DNA of 43,903 nucleotides, taken from contig JAQBVV010000010.1 of NCBI GenBank assembly GCA_027622905.1, positions 1 to 43,903 of the forward strand, written 5' to 3'. The translations under genes and the position numbers were made by a program. Below the pieces are notes generated by a model that was given only the letters and a program-made list of their open reading frames with translations, ran no database searches and had not been told where the DNA came from. Shown one piece after another: positions 4,295 to 32,488 of the stretch. This DNA is from Acidobacteriota bacterium. GTDB lineage: Bacteria > Acidobacteriota > Vicinamibacteria > Vicinamibacterales > UBA2999. Numbering within the stretch: the first letter of the stretch is position 1; each line of letters begins with the position of its first letter.

Positions 4295-5365
4295 CTAGGT
4301 AATCCGCAACAGCTTGATCAGGTTCCCGCCCAGAATGGCTTCCTTCTCGGCATCGTTCAGGAACCCGGCTTCGAGCACCAGGTCCACCGTCACCGGCCAG
4401 TTGAACGGATTGTCGGTCCCGTAGACGATCTGGTCCACGCCCATCTCGGCCACCAGGTGCCGAAGGCCCTCGTCGGAAAAGACCATCGTATCGACGAGAA
4501 TCTTCGACCGCAGATACTCCGTCGGCCGCTTCGTGTTGGCGCAGTCGGCGTTGGCGCGCACGTCACACGCCGCCTCGGTCCGGCCGAAGTAGGACGGCAG
4601 ATAGCCGCCCGCATGCGCGCCGCAGACGCGCAGCGCGGGATGCCGGTCGAAGACGCCGTCGAAGATCAGGCGAGACAGGAAGTAGGTCGTCTCGAGCGGG
4701 TTACCCATGACGTTCCCCAGGTCGCCGCGTCCGCCAAATGCCCCGTCCCTGATGATGTTGTCGGCGCCCCCAGGGTGCATGAAGACGAGTTCACCCATCT
4801 CGGCCGCCTTCGCCCAGAACGGGTCGAACTTCGGCAGCGACAGATCCTCGCCGTTGACGTGACCGCCGAGCGTGACACCTCGCGCGCCGAGCCGCGTGAC
4901 AGCATCCTCCAGCACCTCTGCCGCGAGATCCGGAAACTGCAACGGGACCGACGCCATCGCAACGAAGCGATCGGCATGGTCTCGGACCGATGCCGCCAGC
5001 TGCTCGTTCTGTCTGTTGCAGATGGCGCGCGCCAGGCCGCGATCCGTCGCCTCGTACCACCAGAACCCGTTGATGCTGAGCGCCTGCATGTCGAGGCCGT
5101 TCTCGTCCATGGAGAGCAGGCGCTCCTCGAGCCCGGGATCGGCGTCGGCCCGGTTCTCGAATGGCGTGCCCCTGACCACGTCGCCGAGTGGCATGTTGCA
5201 GTGCGCATGCACGTCGATGACCCGGATCCGCCGGCCACCAATCGAGACCTGACGTCTCGCCACAGGGGCCTGCGCATCAGCGTTCCCACCGCGCGTCATG
5301 ACGTACATCCCGGCCGCCGCGCCAGCAACGCTCTTGAAGAACTCTCTGCGACCTTTGACCGTCAT
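4295..5365 (-). CDS. Tat-exported amidohydrolase of the ACMSD-like family
   Basis: The 356-residue protein has a twin-arginine N-terminus (GRREFFK, then a hydrophobic stretch), so it is likely folded before export. The metal centre is visible: HAH at 53-55, His197 in FMHPGG, His251 in CGAHAGG, and Asp318 in YGTDNP. This is the order found in aminocarboxymuconate-semialdehyde decarboxylase-type amidohydrolases, which decarboxylate or hydrolyse small carboxylates. The substrate is not known. The start ATG at 5365 has AAGGAG seven bases upstream. It leads a minus-strand set with the cytochrome gene and is divergent from the NHL lipoprotein. Confidence 0.87.
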   Translation of the reverse strand: MTVKGRREFFKSVAGAAAGMYVMTRGGNADAQAPVARRQVSIGGRRIRVIDVHAHCNMPLGDVVRGTPFENRADADPGLEERLLSMDENGLDMQALSINGFWWYEATDRGLARAICNRQNEQLAASVRDHADRFVAMASVPLQFPDLAAEVLEDAVTRLGARGVTLGGHVNGEDLSLPKFDPFWAKAAEMGELVFMHPGGADNIIRDGAFGGRGDLGNVMGNPLETTYFLSRLIFDGVFDRHPALRVCGAHAGGYLPSYFGRTEAACDVRANADCANTKRPTEYLRSKILVDTMVFSDEGLRHLVAEMGVDQIVYGTDNPFNWPVTVDLVLEAGFLNDAEKEAILGGNLIKLLRIT

Positions 5366-11609: not shown

Positions 11610-12629
11610 CTAAGCGACGTCGTGCTCGAGAATGATCTTCATCCGTCGGCCACCACCCTCGGAGCCGAGCATGCCGACGGCGGCTTCCAGCTCTCCGAGT
11701 GGCATCACGTCGCTGACCAGCGGTTCGAGTCGCACCAACCCGCGCTGCACCAGACCGATCGCCCCCGGGTAGTCCTCACCCTTGGCGACGCGCGCGCTGA
11801 TGAGCGAGAGCTCCTTGAAATACAGATCGTAGAACGGCAGCGCGCCTTCGGTGGCCGTGATGATACCGAACATCAGCACGCGTCCGCCCGACCGCGTCAT
11901 GTTGATGCCCGCCGACAACTGCGACACGACACCCGTCGTCTCGATGACCACATCGGCCCCACGGCCCTCGGTGGCCTCGCGGACCCGGTCCACGGCCCCG
12001 TCGCCTCCGGGGATCGTCACGTCCGCACCCAGCGTTTCGGCGAGCGCGCGCTTCTCGGCGCTGCGCGTCACGCCGATCACCGTCGCGCCCCGCGCCCTCG
12101 CCAGCTGCACGTGGAGCTGCCCGGTGACTCCCAGGCCAAGGACCACCACGTACTCACCGGGGAAGATCTCGACCTGTCGCTGCGCGTGGAGACAGGTCGT
12201 GAGCACCTGGATCATCGGCGCCGTTCGGATATCGAGATCGTCGGACAGTTTGAACACCTGGCTCGACGGCGCGGCGAGATAATCGGCGAAACCGCCGTCG
12301 GCATCGCGCCCGAGCAGAAGGCCATTCGGGCACAGATGCGTCTGACCGATACGGCAGTGGAAGCAGCTGCCGCAGTAGAGTTCGGGGTCGACGATGACCT
12401 TGTCGCCGGCGCCAAGCGCGCTGTTGCCGGCCTCCACGACCTCACCGACCATCTCGTGGCCCATGATGCGGGGATACCGAACGGGAATCGAGCCGTTGAA
12501 GATCTTGAAATCGGTACCGCAGATGCCGCTGTGTGTCACCCGGACCAGCACCTGCTCCGGCGGGCCCGCTGGCCGCGACACGTCGTCCTGCGCCAGCGCC
12601 CCTGGCGCCGTCAGGACCATGGCTTTCAT
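11610..12629 (-). CDS. Zinc-dependent medium-chain alcohol/polyol dehydrogenase
   Basis: This is a 339-residue medium-chain dehydrogenase. Cys37 (SGICGTD), His58-Glu59 (GHE) and a later acidic residue form the catalytic zinc site. Cys86, Cys89, Cys92 and Cys100 form the structural zinc site. GLGVTG marks the NAD(P)-binding fold. It resembles the threonine/sorbitol dehydrogenase branch, which oxidises secondary alcohols. The exact substrate is unknown. The ATG at 12629 begins the family-typical MKAMVLTAP; a GTG at 12644 adds five residues but lies in a tandem repeat. It lies between the hydroxyacid dehydrogenase and livH on the same strand. Confidence 0.88.
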   Translation of the reverse strand: MKAMVLTAPGALAQDDVSRPAGPPEQVLVRVTHSGICGTDFKIFNGSIPVRYPRIMGHEMVGEVVEAGNSALGAGDKVIVDPELYCGSCFHCRIGQTHLCPNGLLLGRDADGGFADYLAAPSSQVFKLSDDLDIRTAPMIQVLTTCLHAQRQVEIFPGEYVVVLGLGVTGQLHVQLARARGATVIGVTRSAEKRALAETLGADVTIPGGDGAVDRVREATEGRGADVVIETTGVVSQLSAGINMTRSGGRVLMFGIITATEGALPFYDLYFKELSLISARVAKGEDYPGAIGLVQRGLVRLEPLVSDVMPLGELEAAVGMLGSEGGGRRMKIILEHDVA

Positions 12630-19644: not shown

Positions 19645-21354
19645 CTACATCTGGATGGATGTCAGCAGGTCGTAGGCGCGCTGTTGGATCGGGTTGGGGG
19701 TGGTGACGACGTTGAAGGTGGGCTCGCCGGTGGTCGATGCGCCGTGCCGGCGACACGTGTTGCTGACGATGCTACTCAGATTCTGGAGCAGCGTGTGAAA
19801 GCTGTGAACTGGGGTGCCGTCGTTGAGGAACTTGGTATGCACCTTGGCGAGGGCAGCGTCCGAGCGTGTCGCGGGCGCCACCGGATCGCGGGTAGCTTTG
19901 GCCTGTTGGTCTTCATCGGCAAAGAGCAGCGGGCGCCACGATTCCATCATGTGCCACGCAACATAGTGCGCCAGCATGCAGAGGAAGATGTGCGCCTTGA
20001 CGCGATCCTCGAGCCAGTGTCGGATCGGCCGGACTTCGAGGTCGACGGTCTTCAAGGATCGAAAGGCGCGCTCGACCTGACCGAGCATCTTGTAGCTACG
20101 CACCACATCGTCGGTGGCCAGGCGTTGAGCGGGTACACTCGTCCGGACGACGTAGAGGCCATCCAGCGCCGCCTCTGCTGACACCTTGTCGGCATCGAGG
20201 TGGAAATCGAATCCGTCCTCGCGAATATCCAGCACCAGGTGCTTGGACATCTTGTACTTGTCGACGACTTTGCCGACGCGGACGCCGATCGCGCCGCGCC
20301 CTGTAAGCCTGCCGCGCGCGATCATGCCGCGCACTTTCTCCAACTCGCCGGACGTGGCGTCAAGCAGCGCGTGGCGCTTGTGGGCACGGAGCAGCGCCAA
20401 CTGCGGATTTCGACACGCGACGAGTCGTTCGCCGGGGAAATCCGGATGCGTGACTTCGAACAGGTGGCGGTCGTCGAACAGGCCGATCTGGAGGTGCCCC
20501 CCGTCGACTAAGTTGCGAATGGCGCCGGTCCTGAGGGCGGTAATCCACTCGAGGCCCTCTCGCTGCCTGAGGGCATTGATTTGCTTCTGCGAAATCATCC
20601 CGCGATCGCCCACGAGGACGAGCCGGTCGATCGCGAAGGTCTTCTGCAGTTTCTCGACCTGCGGCATCAAGGTCGTCGGGTCGCCCGTGTTCCCTGCGAA
20701 CACGGACACGGCAACGGGACACCCCCGCGGGTCGGTGAGCAGGCCGTAGTTGACTTGGAGCTTGCCGGTCTTGCCATCGCGGTTGTACCCGCGTGCGGCC
20801 AGCGGGCTGGTCGTCCCTTCAAAGTAGCTCGAGCTCAAATCGTAGAGCACGAAGCCTCCCGTCTTGAGATGGCGGGCCGCCAGCTTCTTCTCGATGTGCG
20901 CTTGGCGCGTGATCAGCCAATCGAGCGCGGCATACAGGTCATCTGCGTCCGCGTCCGTCACGCCGAACGCGTCGGGCAGCGTCGTGGTGTGCCACCACCG
21001 GGTGGTCGCCAGTTTACTGGTGGGCTCGAGGATGCGAGCCGTTACCATGGCGAGCACCAGGTCCCGGTCGCGAGAGGGCCGAGACGCGAGGAGCGACGCG
21101 AAGCCGAGCCGTGTCATGGCGGCCCGCACGGCCTGCACATGGCCCTGATGGCGCGAGTGCACGATCTCGAAGAGCTCAGCGGCCGGCACCAGCGTCTCGC
21201 CCTTCAAGGTCCGCCGAATCGCCTCGACTTGCGCGGGCGAGAGTGCGGACAGATTCGCCAAGGTGCGTTTGCGCACCTTGGCGCCCTGCCGGTACGACTC
21301 GCGGAGGAGGACCGCCGGCGGCGAGTTGCGGTTGGGGACGACGTCGATGTGCAT
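19645..21354 (-). CDS. IS1634-family DDE transposase
   Basis: This is a 569-residue intact transposase that cuts and joins the element ends. The catalytic acids are visible as Asp172 in YDLSSSYFEG, Asp250 in VGDRGM and Glu428 in QVERAFRSLKT, the IS4/IS1634 pattern with the YREK-like region around the last residue. ATG 21354 is favoured over the GTG at 21360 because the promoter -10 box ends at 21361, so a transcript would begin at or near the ATG. Full length and intact motifs indicate a recent or still mobile insertion. Confidence 0.9.
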   Translation of the reverse strand: MHIDVVPNRNSPPAVLLRESYRQGAKVRKRTLANLSALSPAQVEAIRRTLKGETLVPAAELFEIVHSRHQGHVQAVRAAMTRLGFASLLASRPSRDRDLVLAMVTARILEPTSKLATTRWWHTTTLPDAFGVTDADADDLYAALDWLITRQAHIEKKLAARHLKTGGFVLYDLSSSYFEGTTSPLAARGYNRDGKTGKLQVNYGLLTDPRGCPVAVSVFAGNTGDPTTLMPQVEKLQKTFAIDRLVLVGDRGMISQKQINALRQREGLEWITALRTGAIRNLVDGGHLQIGLFDDRHLFEVTHPDFPGERLVACRNPQLALLRAHKRHALLDATSGELEKVRGMIARGRLTGRGAIGVRVGKVVDKYKMSKHLVLDIREDGFDFHLDADKVSAEAALDGLYVVRTSVPAQRLATDDVVRSYKMLGQVERAFRSLKTVDLEVRPIRHWLEDRVKAHIFLCMLAHYVAWHMMESWRPLLFADEDQQAKATRDPVAPATRSDAALAKVHTKFLNDGTPVHSFHTLLQNLSSIVSNTCRRHGASTTGEPTFNVVTTPNPIQQRAYDLLTSIQM

Positions 21355-21360
21355 GGCCAC

Positions 21361-21389: not shown

Positions 21390-21565
21390 GTAATTACATG
21401 GCTACGTTATGCACGGCGTATTGCGCCCATCTCTATCGAAACAATGGGCTTCTGCAGATTCGGGGTGGGGAACTTCAGCCTAGACCGAAACGAAAAGCGC
21501 TCCAGTGACCCGCACGTGGCGTTCTCGCGTGACCGTTTCACCCCAAGTAACAGAATTTATTGATG

Positions 21566-25493: not shown

Positions 25494-26741
25494 ATGGATG
25501 ATCCAACGCCGCCTCGTCCGGCGCCCGTTCCGCCTCCAGACAGACATCAACTCGAACGCCTGAACGAGCTGTACGACCTCACGGTGAGCGACCTGCCGGC
25601 TGGAGCCGGATGGCGCGACACACTACTGGACCGCGTGCGCGCGTTCCTGGTCCGGCTGCTCTTCCGCCAGCAGGAGTTCAACGCAGCCGTCGTCGATCAC
25701 ATCAATCGCAACGCGCTGGTGGGTATCGAAGCGCACCATGCCAGTGAACGCACGATCGCGTGGGTCGAGCGGACGGTGCAGGACAGCGTTGACAGGCTGG
25801 CCGGTCAGACTGACGAACTGCGCCGCCACCAGGAGGCACTCGGCGCCTGGGAACAGCGAAGCGGCGATGCCGTCGCACGGCTCACCGCCTCGCACGAAGA
25901 GCTGAGGACATCCATCGGTGTCCTTCAACAGGCGGCCCACGCGCTGAAACGAGACGTCGGCAGGCTCACCGCAAGCGGCGCGATGCCGCCCGCTGTTGCA
26001 CCGAGTTCAGCGGAGCCGGCAAGTCCGGCCGCGGTAGCCGCCGGTCAACTCGAGTCGGCCGACAGCCACACGTACGTGGGATTCGAGGATCTCTTTCGCG
26101 GCTCCGCCGACGACATCACCGAGCGGGTGTCGGAGTATCTTCCGTTCGTGCAGGGCGCCAGTGACGTCCTCGACATCGGCTGCGGGCGCGGCGAATTTCT
26201 GGCGCTCCTCCGGGAACACGGCATTCGGGCCAAGGGCATCGATATCAACGGCTCGATGGTGGAGGTCTGCCGCCAGCAAGGCCTCGACGCCACCGAAGCA
26301 GATGCGTTGTCATACCTTCGGGCGCAACCTGACAACTCGCTGGGCGGACTGTTCGCCGCACAGGTGGTTGAACACCTCGAACCGCGCTACCTCACAGGGC
26401 TGCTCGACATCGCCTTCGACAAGCTGCGCCCAGGCGCACCGATCATCCTGGAGACGATCAATCCTGCGTGCTGGTTCGCGTTCTTTGAGAGCTACATACG
26501 AGACATCACCCATGTCCGGCCTATTCACCCTGACACGCTGACGTACCTGCTCGTTGCCAGCGGATTCCAGCACGTCGACGTTCGCTACCGCGCTCCTTAT
26601 CCTGAGCACGACAAGCTGCAGCGAATCGCGCCGCAGGCGTCACTCGGCGACAGCGTCGACACGCTCAACGCCAATGTTGAGCGGCTCAACAGCCTGCTGT
26701 TCACGTGGCTCGACTACGCCGCGATCGGCCGCCGGCCGTGA
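25494..26741 (+). CDS. SAM-dependent methyltransferase with N-terminal coiled coil
   Basis: This is a 415-residue protein. Residues ~85-160 are rich in charged heptads and likely form a coiled coil, followed by an Ala/Pro linker. Residues ~195-400 are a class I methyltransferase: the SAM-binding loop is LDIGCGRGEF (226-235), then IDINGSMVEVC, and FAAQVVEHLE as the post-II region. Coiled-coil methyltransferases occur in polysaccharide loci, where some cap the growing chain, as with WbdD. Here no kinase domain is seen, so chain capping is only a possibility. Start ATG is four bases after the thiG stop. Confidence 0.82.
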   Translation: MDDPTPPRPAPVPPPDRHQLERLNELYDLTVSDLPAGAGWRDTLLDRVRAFLVRLLFRQQEFNAAVVDHINRNALVGIEAHHASERTIAWVERTVQDSVDRLAGQTDELRRHQEALGAWEQRSGDAVARLTASHEELRTSIGVLQQAAHALKRDVGRLTASGAMPPAVAPSSAEPASPAAVAAGQLESADSHTYVGFEDLFRGSADDITERVSEYLPFVQGASDVLDIGCGRGEFLALLREHGIRAKGIDINGSMVEVCRQQGLDATEADALSYLRAQPDNSLGGLFAAQVVEHLEPRYLTGLLDIAFDKLRPGAPIILETINPACWFAFFESYIRDITHVRPIHPDTLTYLLVASGFQHVDVRYRAPYPEHDKLQRIAPQASLGDSVDTLNANVERLNSLLFTWLDYAAIGRRP

Positions 26742-26798: not shown

Positions 26799-28172
26799 AT
26801 GAATCTCCTGCTGCTGCTCGCTGCGCTGCTGCCGTGGGGACACACAGCTGTCTCGATCTTCACGCGCGTCTACATCGCGATCAGCATCCTCGCGGTGGAG
26901 ATGCAGGTGGCGACGGTGACTGGCCTCGGCACGCTGTATTCGCTGGTAGCCTTCAACACAGTCCTGGCCCTGTTGCTCGTCGCCTGGCAGCGCAGCCGAG
27001 GCGAGGCCTTTCTCGGCTGGCCCGCCGCGATCCAGCCTCCGCGGCCGTGGCTCGCATGGGCGATGCTCGGCGGGGTCATCCTCCTCCTCAATCTGTGGCT
27101 CCCCGTGAAAGCCGCGGATCCCTATCACCTTGACCGCGTGGCCCAGATCGAACGGCTCGGGACGATCGAGTACGATCCCGACGCCAATTCGAAGGCGAAT
27201 GTCCTGGGGTGGGTCTACGAACTGGCCATGGCCGACGTACGACAGATTCCGCTCGTCGGCCACGGACTCGTCCGCATGCACGGACTGCTGAGTCTCCTGC
27301 TGTTCGGCGTCACGGTGGCTGCGGTACAACCATGGCTCCGTATAGGACCGTCTCGATGGCCCATCGCCATCCTCCTTGTCGTGCCTCCCCTGTTCCACCA
27401 GCTCGTGCTCATCAAGAACGACCTGCTCCTTGCCCTTCCGGCTTTCGTGGCGCTGGTATGGCTGGTCATGCGCTCACGCTGCGCTTCGTGGCAGGAGACA
27501 GCGTGGGCAGGATGGCTGGCCGGGCTCGCTGTCGTCGGAAAACTGACAAACCTTCCCGTCGCATTCGCGATGATGACGGGAATCGGCTCTTTGTCCTGGC
27601 GGAGACGCGACTGGCGGCTAGCCGGCGGGTTGGCGATCGGGGGACTCGCGGGCGGCGTCATGGCCGGCCAGCTGTTCACGTTCGCGGAGAACGCCCGCTG
27701 GTACGGCGACGTCCTGGCCCGTGGGCCGATTGCTGACATGGGAAACATGACGTCCGGTCCTGCCGAAGCCCTTGAGAGCCTCGGGCGCTTCGCCATCAGC
27801 CTCGTTGACCTCGGTCAACTGACAGGTCAGATGTGGCCGGGCCGAGGAGGATGGGGCGGTACCCTTGGCCTGCCGTTCATCTGGGCAGCGGTGGTGCTCG
27901 TACTCCATTACGCTCGTGCTCAGGAAGCACGCTGGACCATATGGATCGTGGTATTTCACCTTGCGGCCTTCGCCGCGGTCTATCCTGACGCCGACCTACA
28001 TCATCGCCTCGCGCTGGCGCCCGGATTGCTCGCGGTGGGCGTCGCCGTCAGCTTGTTGCGCCGAGGTGAGAAGTACTCCGACGTGGCGAGGCTCGCCCTG
28101 GTGCCGGTGCTCGTGCTGTCGAGCGCACAACTCCTTCGGAGTTCGGTCCTGTATCTTTTCCGGGTTAGCTGA
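26799..28172 (+). CDS. Polytopic membrane protein, GT-C-like
   Basis: This is a 457-residue protein with many hydrophobic segments across its length and a soluble loop after residue ~105 (DPYHLDRVAQIERLGTIEYDPDANSK). Loops of this kind, with acidic and His residues after the first membrane spans, occur in GT-C glycosyltransferases that use lipid-linked sugars. I do not recognise a named family. It starts at ATG 26799 without a clear ribosome binding site, 57 bases after the methyltransferase, and its end overlaps the convergent fusion gene by eight bases. A degraded copy of its last ~50 codons lies at 30414-30566. Confidence 0.7.
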   Translation: MNLLLLLAALLPWGHTAVSIFTRVYIAISILAVEMQVATVTGLGTLYSLVAFNTVLALLLVAWQRSRGEAFLGWPAAIQPPRPWLAWAMLGGVILLLNLWLPVKAADPYHLDRVAQIERLGTIEYDPDANSKANVLGWVYELAMADVRQIPLVGHGLVRMHGLLSLLLFGVTVAAVQPWLRIGPSRWPIAILLVVPPLFHQLVLIKNDLLLALPAFVALVWLVMRSRCASWQETAWAGWLAGLAVVGKLTNLPVAFAMMTGIGSLSWRRRDWRLAGGLAIGGLAGGVMAGQLFTFAENARWYGDVLARGPIADMGNMTSGPAEALESLGRFAISLVDLGQLTGQMWPGRGGWGGTLGLPFIWAAVVLVLHYARAQEARWTIWIVVFHLAAFAAVYPDADLHHRLALAPGLLAVGVAVSLLRRGEKYSDVARLALVPVLVLSSAQLLRSSVLYLFRVS

Positions 28173-29571
28173 ACCGGCGCCCAACGATCAGCCTCAGCAT
28201 CGACACGAAGGCGCGCAAGGTCTGGTCCGGTTCTTTCACGCCCTTTCGCCGCACTGCGAAACTTACCGGGATCTCGATGATTCGCATCCGGCACTTCAGG
28301 GTCTCAAGGAACATCTCAACGGAGTACTCGGGTCCGGATGTCTGCAGATTGCCGCGGATCAGGCGGTAGGTGGAGTTCCAGACGGCCCGGTAGCCGCATC
28401 CGGTGTCCGTGAACCTCGGCTCGTAGCCCCACCAGACGATTTCCAAGAGCTTGGCGAGCAAGATGTGCGCGAAGCGGACGATGCCGCGCATGTTCGTGCC
28501 CTGCTCGATCAACTGCCGCGTCGTGCGGGTTCCGACGACGAAGTCCGCCTCCTTCAGGTATTCGATGAACTTCGGCACATCGCGTGCACGGCAGGAGCCG
28601 TCTGATTGCGCGCAGATGAGAATGTCGGCCGACACCGCGTCAAAACCGGTGCGCATCATGTCCCCGTATCGTGACGACGACGCGGACACGCATTCGACGC
28701 TAGGTTCCGTATTCGGGGAGGCGACACCAGGGGGAAGCACGAGGACGATCTGGTGAAATCGTCCAAGGGCGCGGAACTCATCGATCGAACGTGACGTTTC
28801 CTCTATCGAGCCCTTCATCATCAAGGCGAGCCCGAGCGTGCAGGCCGGAAACTCGTGCGCGCGGACGACGATGGCGGCCAGATTCAGGGCATCACGGTTA
28901 TTGATGTTGACGTAGGGTCCACGCACGTGGAACACGCCGACCCGTTCGCCAGCCTCGCACAGCCGGCCAAGCACGCTCACCGGGTCTGATAACGATTCGG
29001 TAGCCAGCGCAGCTTCCAGATGCTCATAAAACCTCGGGCTGACGACAAACGTCCCGAGTCCGAGCAGCGCCCCATCCGTGTGTTTAGGCTTCTCTACCAA
29101 GCGCCGAACGAAACCCCGCTCCGCGTACACCGCGTAATTTTGCCTGATGAGATCCGTGTCGTTCGTCACCTGAACGGCACACGTCGCGACGCAACTCCGG
29201 TAGTCGGTGGCCAGGATCTCTTCGTGATTCGAATCCACGTAGCATTCATCGGCCAGCATGACGCAGGCGTAGTCGTCTACGTGGGAACGCGTGAGCAGGA
29301 GCGAGTAGCCCAGACCGCGCTCGATGGCATCGTTCTCCACGTAGACAATCGCCACACCGAAGCGCGCTCCGTCCTCGAAATACTGACGAATCTGATCGCC
29401 ATACGCGCCGACGACGACGACGATGCGTACCACGTGAAGCTTGTCACGCATGATCGCCACGACGCGCTCAAGGTTCGGCTTCCCCGCCACGTCCACCATG
29501 CTCTTGGGAACACCCTTCGAGTAGGGGTAGGCCCGCGTGCCATGCCCAGCCGCCAGGATGACGCCGATCAT
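28165..29571 (-). CDS. Sugar nucleotidyltransferase fused to a GT2 glycosyltransferase
   Basis: This is a 468-residue two-domain protein. Residues 1-~235 are a nucleotidyltransferase: LAAGHGTRAYPYSKGVPKSM is the nucleotide loop with its downstream lysine, VMLADECYV holds the metal-binding acid, and VEKPKHTDG is the sugar-1-phosphate loop. Residues ~240-468 are a GT-A glycosyltransferase with AQSDGSCRARDVPKFIEYL (dolichol-phosphate-mannose-synthase-like), DTGCGYRA and PVSFAVRRKG. The fusion would activate a sugar and pass it on in one protein. The ATG overlaps the stop of the upstream GT2 gene (ATGA), showing coupling. Confidence 0.83.
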   Translation of the reverse strand: MIGVILAAGHGTRAYPYSKGVPKSMVDVAGKPNLERVVAIMRDKLHVVRIVVVVGAYGDQIRQYFEDGARFGVAIVYVENDAIERGLGYSLLLTRSHVDDYACVMLADECYVDSNHEEILATDYRSCVATCAVQVTNDTDLIRQNYAVYAERGFVRRLVEKPKHTDGALLGLGTFVVSPRFYEHLEAALATESLSDPVSVLGRLCEAGERVGVFHVRGPYVNINNRDALNLAAIVVRAHEFPACTLGLALMMKGSIEETSRSIDEFRALGRFHQIVLVLPPGVASPNTEPSVECVSASSSRYGDMMRTGFDAVSADILICAQSDGSCRARDVPKFIEYLKEADFVVGTRTTRQLIEQGTNMRGIVRFAHILLAKLLEIVWWGYEPRFTDTGCGYRAVWNSTYRLIRGNLQTSGPEYSVEMFLETLKCRMRIIEIPVSFAVRRKGVKEPDQTLRAFVSMLRLIVGRRFS

Positions 29572-30296
29572 GTCCGACGCGCAACGCGGAACCGAAGCCA
29601 GGCCGTGACGATGTACCAGACGTAGGTCACCGTCTCACGCAGGTGGCGCATCTTTGACACGCCGCTGGCGCGCGGGGCATATCTCACGGGAATCTCATGA
29701 ATGCGGTGCCCCGCTTGCGCCAACTGGACACCCATCTCGGCCACGTGCTCGAACCCGTCGCGACGAAGCGTCAGGGAGTCCAGAGCATCGCGTCGCAGCG
29801 CCTTCATCCCGGTATACAGGTCCGTTGTCGCCTGGCGAAAGAGGATGTTGAACACACCACTGATCAGGCCGTTGCCGCACCTGCGAATCCACGACATGTC
29901 TGGCTGTCCGTCGCCGAGGAAGCGTGAGCCGTACACCACAGGGTGCCGATCGAGAGCCGCCAGCAGATCGGGGATTGACTCGGGCGGGTACTCCAGATCG
30001 GCATCGATGATCACGATGGCCGCGGCATCGGATGCTGCGATCCCATCACGGATCGACGCGCCGTATCCAGCGTTGCGGTCGTGCCTCACGAGCCGTATGT
30101 CCGCATGATGCTCTATACGCTGAACCGTCAGGTCAGTCGATGCGTTATCAACGAAGATCAGCGCCTCGCGCAGCCCGACGGCGGTAACACGATCGACGAA
30201 CTCGTCCACGCACGCCTCTTCGTTGTAGACGGGCACGATGATGTCCACGGCTCTCTGCAATGTGGCTCCAACTGACGGAAAACTGCTTGTGTTCAT
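29568..30296 (-). CDS. GT2 glycosyltransferase, polyprenyl-phosphate-hexosyltransferase-like
   Basis: This is a 242-residue GT-A enzyme. It starts with DIIVPVYNEEACVDEFV, has FVDNASTD, the metal-binding DADLEYPPESI, and the acceptor-side TTDLYTGMKALRR, then ends with a basic region and a weak hydrophobic stretch. It resembles dolichol-phosphate mannosyltransferases that load a sugar on a polyprenyl phosphate. The ATG at 30296 is preferred over a GTG at 30308; no ribosome binding site is evident. It is coupled to the downstream fusion gene. Confidence 0.85.
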   Translation of the reverse strand: MNTSSFPSVGATLQRAVDIIVPVYNEEACVDEFVDRVTAVGLREALIFVDNASTDLTVQRIEHHADIRLVRHDRNAGYGASIRDGIAASDAAAIVIIDADLEYPPESIPDLLAALDRHPVVYGSRFLGDGQPDMSWIRRCGNGLISGVFNILFRQATTDLYTGMKALRRDALDSLTLRRDGFEHVAEMGVQLAQAGHRIHEIPVRYAPRASGVSKMRHLRETVTYVWYIVTAWLRFRVARRT

Positions 30297-30413
30297 TGGG
30301 GGTCGCACGGTAGGCGCGATGGGACGTGCCAGCGCACATTATGCTGCAGGACAGATGTGAGCGCACGCACAGCCAGATGACCGTGCCGGAGGCCAAAGCC
30401 TACGACGGTCTTT

Positions 30414-30566
30414 CCTGACGCCAACCCCCGTCAGCGGCCGGCGCTGGCTTCCGGGTCGCTCGTGGTGCGCGTCACCGTGAGTCCGCTCCTCCGAGATGAG
30501 AAGCGCTCCGACGCGGTAAGACCGGCCCTGGCAGTCCGGTGCCTCAGGCTGTCCGATGAGGGCTGA
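30414..30566 (+). pseudogene. Degraded second copy of the 3' end of the membrane-protein gene at 26799-28172
   Basis: Bases 30414-30531 align without gaps to 27984-28101 with 87 of 118 identical, counted by hand; weaker similarity continues with small gaps on both sides, from about 30361 to the TGA at 30564-30566. The translated remnant reads PDANPRQRPALASGS against PDADLHHRLALAPGL in the intact protein. No start or 5' part remains. As at the intact copy, the remnant ends against the 3' end of a minus-strand glycosyltransferase gene. The stretch 30297-30360 holds nothing I can identify. Confidence 0.75.
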
Positions 30567-31289
30567 CTACCGATAATGCCCCGACACGTAGCGACCCATG
30601 ACGCCGAGAGTGCGCAGGCCGTACCAGATCGGATTCAAGTGCGAGACCTCGCCGGCGTAGCGCGTCGGGATGGCAAGTTCGTCGACAACGAGCCCCTTGC
30701 TCGACGCCCACGCGATGAACTCAAGGTCGAAATCAAAATAGCCGCTGAGCCGATCGATGGGAACCGTGAGCAGCGCTCTTCTGCTGTATACGAGAAACCC
30801 AGAATGATAGTCGGTCATCCGCAGACCGAAGGTCTTATTCTCCAGCCACGTCAGGCCCTTCCCGGCCACGTACTTGTAGAACGGCATCCCTCCCGCAAGG
30901 GCACTCCCCGCCTTGTGTCTGGACCCCTGCAGGACGTCAATGCCACAGGCATGCATGTGGCGGACGAACTCACAGAGCTGCTCCGGCGGGTACTGGCCGT
31001 CGGCGTGCAGACAGGCCACGTAGTCAGTACCGGAGGCCAGGCACCGCGTCATCCCCTGACGAACAGCCTCGCCGTAGCCCTGATTCGGATGCAGGGAGTG
31101 AACCTGTACCTTGGGGAACTCTGTCTCGAGGAGCTTCGCGACCTCGGCAGTGTCATCGATGCTGCCGTCGTCTATCACGTGAACGACATCGATCATTCGC
31201 CACGCCTCGTCAGGAATTCTGTCGACGACTGCCCGAAGAGTGGCGGCTGCGTTGTAGGCGGGAACAAAAACACTCAGCGACGGCGGCAT
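30567..31289 (-). CDS. GT2 glycosyltransferase
   Basis: This is a 240-residue GT-A enzyme with SVFVPAYNAAATLRAVVDR at the start, HVIDDGSIDDT, the metal site HADGQYPPEQL and the acceptor region MTDYHSGFLVYSR. It belongs with the polyprenyl-phosphate-linked hexosyltransferases and lacks membrane spans. The start ATG has TAGGAG four bases upstream. It lies 41 bases downstream of the interrupted ArnA-like gene on the same strand and may suffer reduced expression from that early stop. Confidence 0.85.
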   Translation of the reverse strand: MPPSLSVFVPAYNAAATLRAVVDRIPDEAWRMIDVVHVIDDGSIDDTAEVAKLLETEFPKVQVHSLHPNQGYGEAVRQGMTRCLASGTDYVACLHADGQYPPEQLCEFVRHMHACGIDVLQGSRHKAGSALAGGMPFYKYVAGKGLTWLENKTFGLRMTDYHSGFLVYSRRALLTVPIDRLSGYFDFDLEFIAWASSKGLVVDELAIPTRYAGEVSHLNPIWYGLRTLGVMGRYVSGHYR

Positions 31290-31330: not shown

Positions 31331-32488
31331 CTAGGCCTGGGTCACAGCGGCCCCGCGCTGCGTCTTCGGCCAGTCACGATACTGGTCGTAGTAGTACGTC
31401 ACCGTTTCCAGGAGCGTCTCCTTGAGCGAGCGCGTCGGCTCCCAACCCAGAAGATCCTTGGCTTTGGTCAGGTTGGGCATTCTGCGATCGCAATCCTCGT
31501 AGCCTTCCCCGTAGAACTCGAGGCCCGACACATTGACGATGGGGTGCTTCAGGTGAGTCGCGTCGCTGGTACACTCCGCATACGCCTCGCGCATCAATTC
31601 CGCAAGTTCCTTCATCGTCACTTCGTTGTGTCGATTGCCGACATTGAAGATCTGATTCACCGACCACTCGCGATTGTTGATCATCAGCACGATCGCCCGG
31701 ATCGCGTCATGGATCGAGACGATCGTGCGCCGCGCCATGCCTCCGTCCACGAGTTGCATCGGTTGACCGTCCAGGAGCGCCGTCATGAAGCATGCGAGCA
31801 CCCTGGGGACACCTTCGCCGTCTCGGCCAGGAATGAAGTCCATCTTCGGGCCAAAGAAATTCAGCGGCCTGATCGTCGTGAACGGTAGACCGGCCTCCTT
31901 GTGTCGGCCAAAGATGTACCGCTCCATCAGCTGCTTCGATGTCGCGTAGGACCATCGTTGATTCCCGATCGGGCCCATGATGAGCGGAGTCGAATCCTCG
32001 TCGAGTTCGTACAATTCTGGATTCGAATAGTCGACATCTCCGAGGTAGCTAGCAAGCGTCCTGCCATAGACTTCGCTCGTGGAGAAGTGAATCAGCCATT
32101 TCTTCTGCTGCACGCAGACGTCGACGATCTTCACCGGCTGCAGAAAATTGGCGTCGATCACGCTGATGGGATTGACGTTGTATTCGGAAGGATTGCAGAT
32201 TGCGGCCAGGTTGATCACCGCGTCCGCGGCTCAAATCGCCTCTCTGAACTCCGGCAGGTCCTCTGCCGATAGCGAGTTCTGGCGGACGTTGAGATGTGGG
32301 TTCGAGAGGTGCTGTGAAATCTTCTCGACGTGCGGGTCCCATCCGTCGATGCGGATGGAATCGTCCTTCAGCAGGGCATCCAGTAGGTGGCTGCCGATGA
32401 AACCACCGCAACCTACCACAGCTAAGCGCATGCGCTCGCCCTCAGCACGCGCAGGGTCCTTTGGCTCAGCCTCTTCGTCCGTCGACAT
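31331..32488 (-). pseudogene. ArnA-like NAD-dependent sugar epimerase/decarboxylase interrupted by an in-frame TGA
   Basis: Both halves are in one frame, with a TGA at 32231-32233. The first half carries the dinucleotide loop VVGCGGFIGSHL. After the stop come INLAAICNP, STSEVYG, YATSK (catalytic Tyr and Lys), RPLNFFGPK and FYGEGYEDCDRRMP, the last matching the C-terminal decarboxylase domain of ArnA, which acts on UDP-glucuronate. Everything except the stop looks intact, at about 385 residues. A single C-to-T change from CGA (Arg) would produce the stop, and a basic residue fits there. It could be a real nonsense mutation, a sequencing error, or a site of readthrough. MRLAVVGC at 32431 is an alternative start with GAGGG upstream. 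Confidence 0.85.

Follow-up and report, generated by a model that had tools for sequence, protein, structure and literature searches.

The polysaccharide locus studied here raises the question of why a spacer between two minus-strand genes carries DNA that resembles the 3' part of a nearby membrane-protein gene, and of how this second copy arose. The stretch analysed, referred to as the window, comprises 43,903 nt of an Acidobacteriota bacterium (assembly GCA_027622905.1, contig JAQBVV010000010.1). In this window, the intact gene (26799-28172, plus strand, 1374 nt) encodes a membrane protein of 457 aa with many predicted helices. It converges with a minus-strand gene for a nucleotidyltransferase (AglF/GlmU-like) fused to a GT2-like domain (28165-29571, 468 aa). 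The upstream gene of the same operon encodes a GT2 glycosyltransferase (AglJ-like; 29568-30308, minus strand), and the two minus-strand genes of this operon (28165-30308) overlap by ATGA. The best named models for the operon products are archaeal enzymes of N-glycosylation, all of them scoring below the model cutoffs, and the complete nucleotidyltransferase-GT2 fusion has no match in 161 other genomes of the order, where its halves alone were detected. The start of the AglJ-like gene is followed by 30309-30405, presumably the upstream region of the operon, then by a decayed fragment of the membrane gene 3' part on the plus strand (30406-30553), and finally by another GT2 glycosyltransferase gene that faces the fragment (30567-31289, minus strand, 240 residues) and is not paralogous to the partner of the intact gene. 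Further along, an NAD-dependent epimerase/dehydratase gene (31331-32482, minus strand) is intact by Pfam except for one in-frame TGA near 32231-32233, which is either a nonsense mutation of very recent date, a variant of this strain or a mistake in the assembly.

A repeat search recovered the two copies as a direct pair, 27976-28101 and 30406-30531, which is ungapped over 126 nt, identical at 94 of these positions (75%) and spaced by 2430 nt. It is the sole long direct repeat between positions 25500 and 33000 of the window. The count of the original prediction, 87 matches in 118 ungapped positions for 30414-30531, is exact, corresponding to 94/126 minus 7 of the first 8 positions. Local alignment extends the pair weakly to 28120 and 30553 (148 columns, 73.6% identity, insertions of 2 and 1 nt), so that the fragment is homologous to 27976-28120, i.e., to codons 393-441 of the 457 in the intact gene. 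The similarity was also found by blastn against the window (E 1.3e-19) and by tblastn with the membrane protein as query, which matches 30408-30530 with 56% identity over 41 residues (E 4.5e-6). The original prediction had made the homology depend on a score better than that of shuffled sequences; the alignment score of 64 was reached by none of 500 dinucleotide-preserving shuffles of the spacer (mean 12.1, maximum 21), which excludes chance. An assembly artefact might be considered, as the genome is split into 239 contigs and has 4% contamination, but a chimeric join would yield identical or unrelated DNA and not a 74% copy that is unique in the assembly: at genome-search thresholds, no further match to the spacer or to the membrane protein was found in the rest of it. 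Taken together, artefact or chance similarity is highly improbable. Thus, the spacer contains a dead, truncated homologue of the membrane gene 3' part, and this remnant probably has no function now.

The extent of the remnant had to be redrawn. An interval of 30361-30566 had originally been proposed; it does hold the remnant, but the real match begins at 30406, and 30361-30405 are not part of it. The 97 nt at 30309-30405 show no similarity beyond shuffles to the membrane gene or to the gene's upstream region. The remnant therefore opens abruptly inside the gene, at codon 393, directly after unrelated DNA. At the other end, the remnant had been described as ending in a stop, just as the intact copy does, and this correspondence did not hold up. 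Homology stops 52 nt short of the intact stop and 13 nt short of the remnant TGA (30564-30566), and the last 52 nt of the membrane gene have no counterpart at the remnant, the comparison lying within shuffles. Only GCTGA is common to both gene ends, which was equalled in 185 of 500 shuffles. Since the flanking comparisons lie within shuffles, the remnant TGA is not shown to be the old stop of the gene. The remnant frame is open through to this TGA; this is no evidence for a preserved frame, because at 70% G+C chance alone would produce an open stretch of 53 codons in about one case in three (p ~0.35). In total, the remnant represents about 145 of the 1374 nt of the gene; it is cut on both sides and neither gene end is present.

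The substitutions were examined for signs of constraint. Over 120 aligned positions, 24 changes could be polarised with one outgroup homologue, which differs at 48% of positions. On the remnant side, the 14 changes comprise 10 non-synonymous and 4 synonymous ones, where the random expectation is 2.6:1 (261:99); on the side of the intact copy, 4 of the 10 changes are non-synonymous and 6 synonymous. Between remnant and intact copy dN/dS is 0.63, compared with 0.30 (whole gene) and 0.45 (tail) between two intact homologues. Mismatches are distributed over the codon positions as 7/13/12, and the third-position share (12/32) is lower than in the functional pair (0.47), though not significantly so (p 0.19). 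These values, which stem from few changes and a distant outgroup, point to an absence of constraint on the remnant and to some constraint on the intact copy. The stretch could also have been kept as a regulatory or RNA element, e.g., as a terminator or leader between two minus-strand transcription units, and its position between two minus-strand genes would suit such a role. However, promoter-like, terminator-like and Rfam matches are all absent, folding is no better than in shuffles (z -0.9), and the changes are spread over all codon positions with no conserved core, which makes retention as such an element very unlikely.

How much was copied, the membrane gene alone or the gene together with its convergent neighbour? 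The original prediction favoured the latter: a membrane gene and a GT2 gene would have been duplicated as a pair and one membrane gene would then have been lost. It was based on the 3' end of a minus-strand glycosyltransferase gene following both copies, which is partly correct, as a GT2-type domain is encoded in both cases, but the partner of the intact copy is the nucleotidyltransferase-GT2 fusion and not a plain GT2 gene. The two partners thus differ in domain make-up, and they are unrelated (fusion 28165-29571 vs GT2 30567-31289, BLASTP E 0.34). No alignment beyond that of shuffles exists between the two sites in the DNA past either stop, and the junctions are unlike, with an overlap of 8 nt between membrane gene and fusion gene and a remnant TGA that merely abuts the GT2 gene at 30567-31289. 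When the window's three GT2 proteins were analysed by maximum likelihood together with relatives from the order, each was placed in a different clade (support 97-100), alongside genes from other genera and families; the window proteins sit on long branches, so that their exact place within a clade is unsure. The AglJ-like GT2 (29568-30308) and the GT2 facing the remnant (30567-31289) share 26% identity, are related only as members of the GT2 family, and each has its nearer relatives elsewhere in the order (best 38-44%). Co-duplication was rejected on the BLASTP result, the DNA comparison and the tree; a protein under selection, copied next to unconstrained DNA that is still 74% identical, should far exceed 21% identity. 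Judged from these comparisons, the convergent neighbour was evidently not copied along with the remnant, and duplication of the pair has a very small probability. Only the membrane gene, or the tail thereof, is present twice. It is possible that a second membrane gene was once complete here and was then lost. A caution follows for similar loci: a neighbour of similar type, here a GT2-type gene facing the gene end, does not equal shared descent, because the genes facing the remnant and the intact copy are different genes.

The intact gene and the remnant are oriented alike and enclose precisely the two genes of the operon 28165-30308, which is unrelated to the flanking partner. The explanation we favour is a scar of recombination, formed as a block with this operon landed between the gene and its old tail; we hold it tentatively, at somewhat less than an even chance. 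In the earlier order, the membrane gene would have faced the GT2 gene at 30567-31289. A block carrying the operon, and perhaps its own version of the membrane gene, might then have joined by recombination. One junction would have been anchored by homology, inside the membrane gene or in the flank upstream of it; the other one, at about 30405/30406, would have been illegitimate. As a result, the block would have an intact membrane gene on its left border and the tail of the old gene on its right border, where the tail would have decayed as neutral DNA. The abrupt start at codon 393 after unrelated DNA is as expected at an illegitimate junction, and insertion by one homologous and one illegitimate junction, coupled to deletion of resident DNA, is known as homology-facilitated illegitimate recombination (PMC3240628). 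The structure in the window could be a product of this process. The meningococcal capsule island is a described case of the same arrangement and mechanism: an acquired polysaccharide block lies there between an intact galE1 and a galE2 that has lost its first 402 nt, and galE2 was explained as a resident gene cut short when the incoming block recombined illegitimately (PMC5349592). Both loci thus have polysaccharide genes enclosed by an intact gene and a 5'-truncated remnant of it. However, galE1 and galE2 lie in inverted repeats and are highly conserved, and their model is backed by population data, whereas the copies in the window are direct and 74% identical, and the remnant is only about 150 nt long. 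Origin as a scar is further in line with a repeat far above chance, with the separate origin of the genes facing remnant and intact copy, and with the unconstrained changes of the remnant (copy-to-copy dN/dS 0.63).

An incoming block would agree with the AglJ-like and nucleotidyltransferase genes being adjacent in another genome of the order as well (G049:C1, 3019522-3020160 and 3020249-3020818); because this pair lies side by side there too, the operon may move as a unit. Against such an entry, G+C and GC3 of the operon are unremarkable: they do not stand out from the neighbours, and no foreign base composition was detected. Three further points argue against a scar: no pre-insertion genome was found among the relatives searched, the changes on the remnant (only 14 assignable, with an outgroup that differs at 48% of positions) fit a copy dead from the start, where a resident gene truncated late should also carry older, mostly synonymous ones, and the last 52 nt of the gene are missing as well, which demands a further deletion. 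A broader version, in which the remnant marks an integration point through which the AglJ/nucleotidyltransferase operon enters Acidobacteria polysaccharide loci by recombining within a rare membrane gene, with scars recurring wherever the operon moved, we regard as very unlikely.

Alternatively, the membrane gene or its 3' part could have been copied within the genome to a site beside the GT2 gene at 30567-31289, with no incoming block, and this copy either never worked or soon lost its 5' part. The ratio of 10 non-synonymous to 4 synonymous changes on the remnant is the expectation for a copy that was dead from the start, and both gene ends are absent, as in a partial copy. There is also precedent: in Salmonella galactose-initiated O-antigen clusters, wzy remnants were degraded by serial deletions, and group D3 duplicates part of wzy (PMC3715488). 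As in these clusters, a degraded piece of a membrane-protein gene lies between glycosyltransferase genes of a polysaccharide locus; the Salmonella remnants, however, were compared across serogroups that keep the intact gene in place, whereas no such relative of the remnant in the window turned up among the genomes searched. Local diverged copies in other spacers of the same genome also agree with a local duplication. On the other hand, duplication and decay leave the exact bracketing of one unrelated operon unexplained, as the copy must be placed beyond the operon. In comparison with the recombination scar, this explanation accounts a little better for the missing constraint and a little less well for where the remnant lies, and we consider it nearly as likely.

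A relative with an intact second membrane gene was searched for in the genome itself, in 59 relatives, in 43 genomes of the family, 162 of the order, 193 of the class and 396 of the phylum, in a scan of 84,980 species and in viral contigs, and none was found. Finding one in relatives was precluded because the membrane gene itself was detected just once outside its own genome. All family members searched belong to different genera, and of these 43 genomes a single one was found to carry a homologue, G008:C382, which is 50% identical at the protein level and is the one clear homologue identified. No further homologue was found in the order (162 genomes) or class (193 genomes), and the phylum sample (396 genomes) gave a marginal partial match of 108 residues (E 4e-4). 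A peptide-pattern scan of the 84,980 species returned one locus, JABFRY010000073.1 of an Acidobacteria metagenome-assembled genome, which shares its match with G008:C382 and is presumed to be that contig. The G008:C382 contig measures 6.7 kb and ends inside the homologue gene, and its neighbours differ from those in the window, with frames that, judged by eye, resemble those of a dTDP-sugar 3,5-epimerase and an oxidoreductase. The membrane gene is thus rare. Its product (26799-28172), which the original prediction called GT-C-like, has no Pfam match even at E 10 and no NCBIfam match, and an AlphaFold2 model built from a two-row alignment reached a pLDDT of 39, too low for the model to be usable.

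Gene remnants in polysaccharide loci are well known, and the remnant in the window is an ordinary member of that kind. It is a small, clear-cut case of a scar from recombination or duplication in a polysaccharide locus. The bacterium is only distantly related to the well-studied pathogens, and the case illustrates that such loci bear the same kind of historical trace in it; beyond this example and the caution on neighbour type, it changes nothing. Within its own genome, the case was set against a sample that covers 0.80 of the 3.43 Mb and whose genes were called roughly, from which 244 spacers of at least 100 nt were compared with the sample. Some match at E <1e-5 was obtained for 48 of the 244 spacers, many of these matches being dispersed repeats or contig-end overlaps, and about half a dozen spacers, including that with the remnant, match DNA less than 10 kb away on the same contig. 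Local diverged copies are therefore uncommon, yet not unique to this locus. Diverged local spacer matches (71-82%) were noted for L073 (238-368 / 1098-1236), L061 (3780-3855 / 12351-12426) and L095 (3056-3126 / 5263-5329), and are possible further duplication scars.

A dispersed repeat also emerged from this survey; it is about 103 bp long, has palindromic arms (AGCGTTTTTCGATTTGG...GAAAAGCGCTCTAGC) and occurs at L043 11250-11352 (G000:C3) and in at least 24 other places, with a piece at 21479-21505 of the window. Among 151 candidates in this genome, 25 copies were scored, with 94-100% identity, and none was found in 34 relatives. By its appearance, the repeat is an element of the REP or MITE type that is restricted to this lineage. 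In the window, 69 nt within 21410-21483 are identical to the ends of contigs L044 and L049 and adjoin a DDE transposase gene (19648-21360); this sequence is an assembly-breaking repeat.
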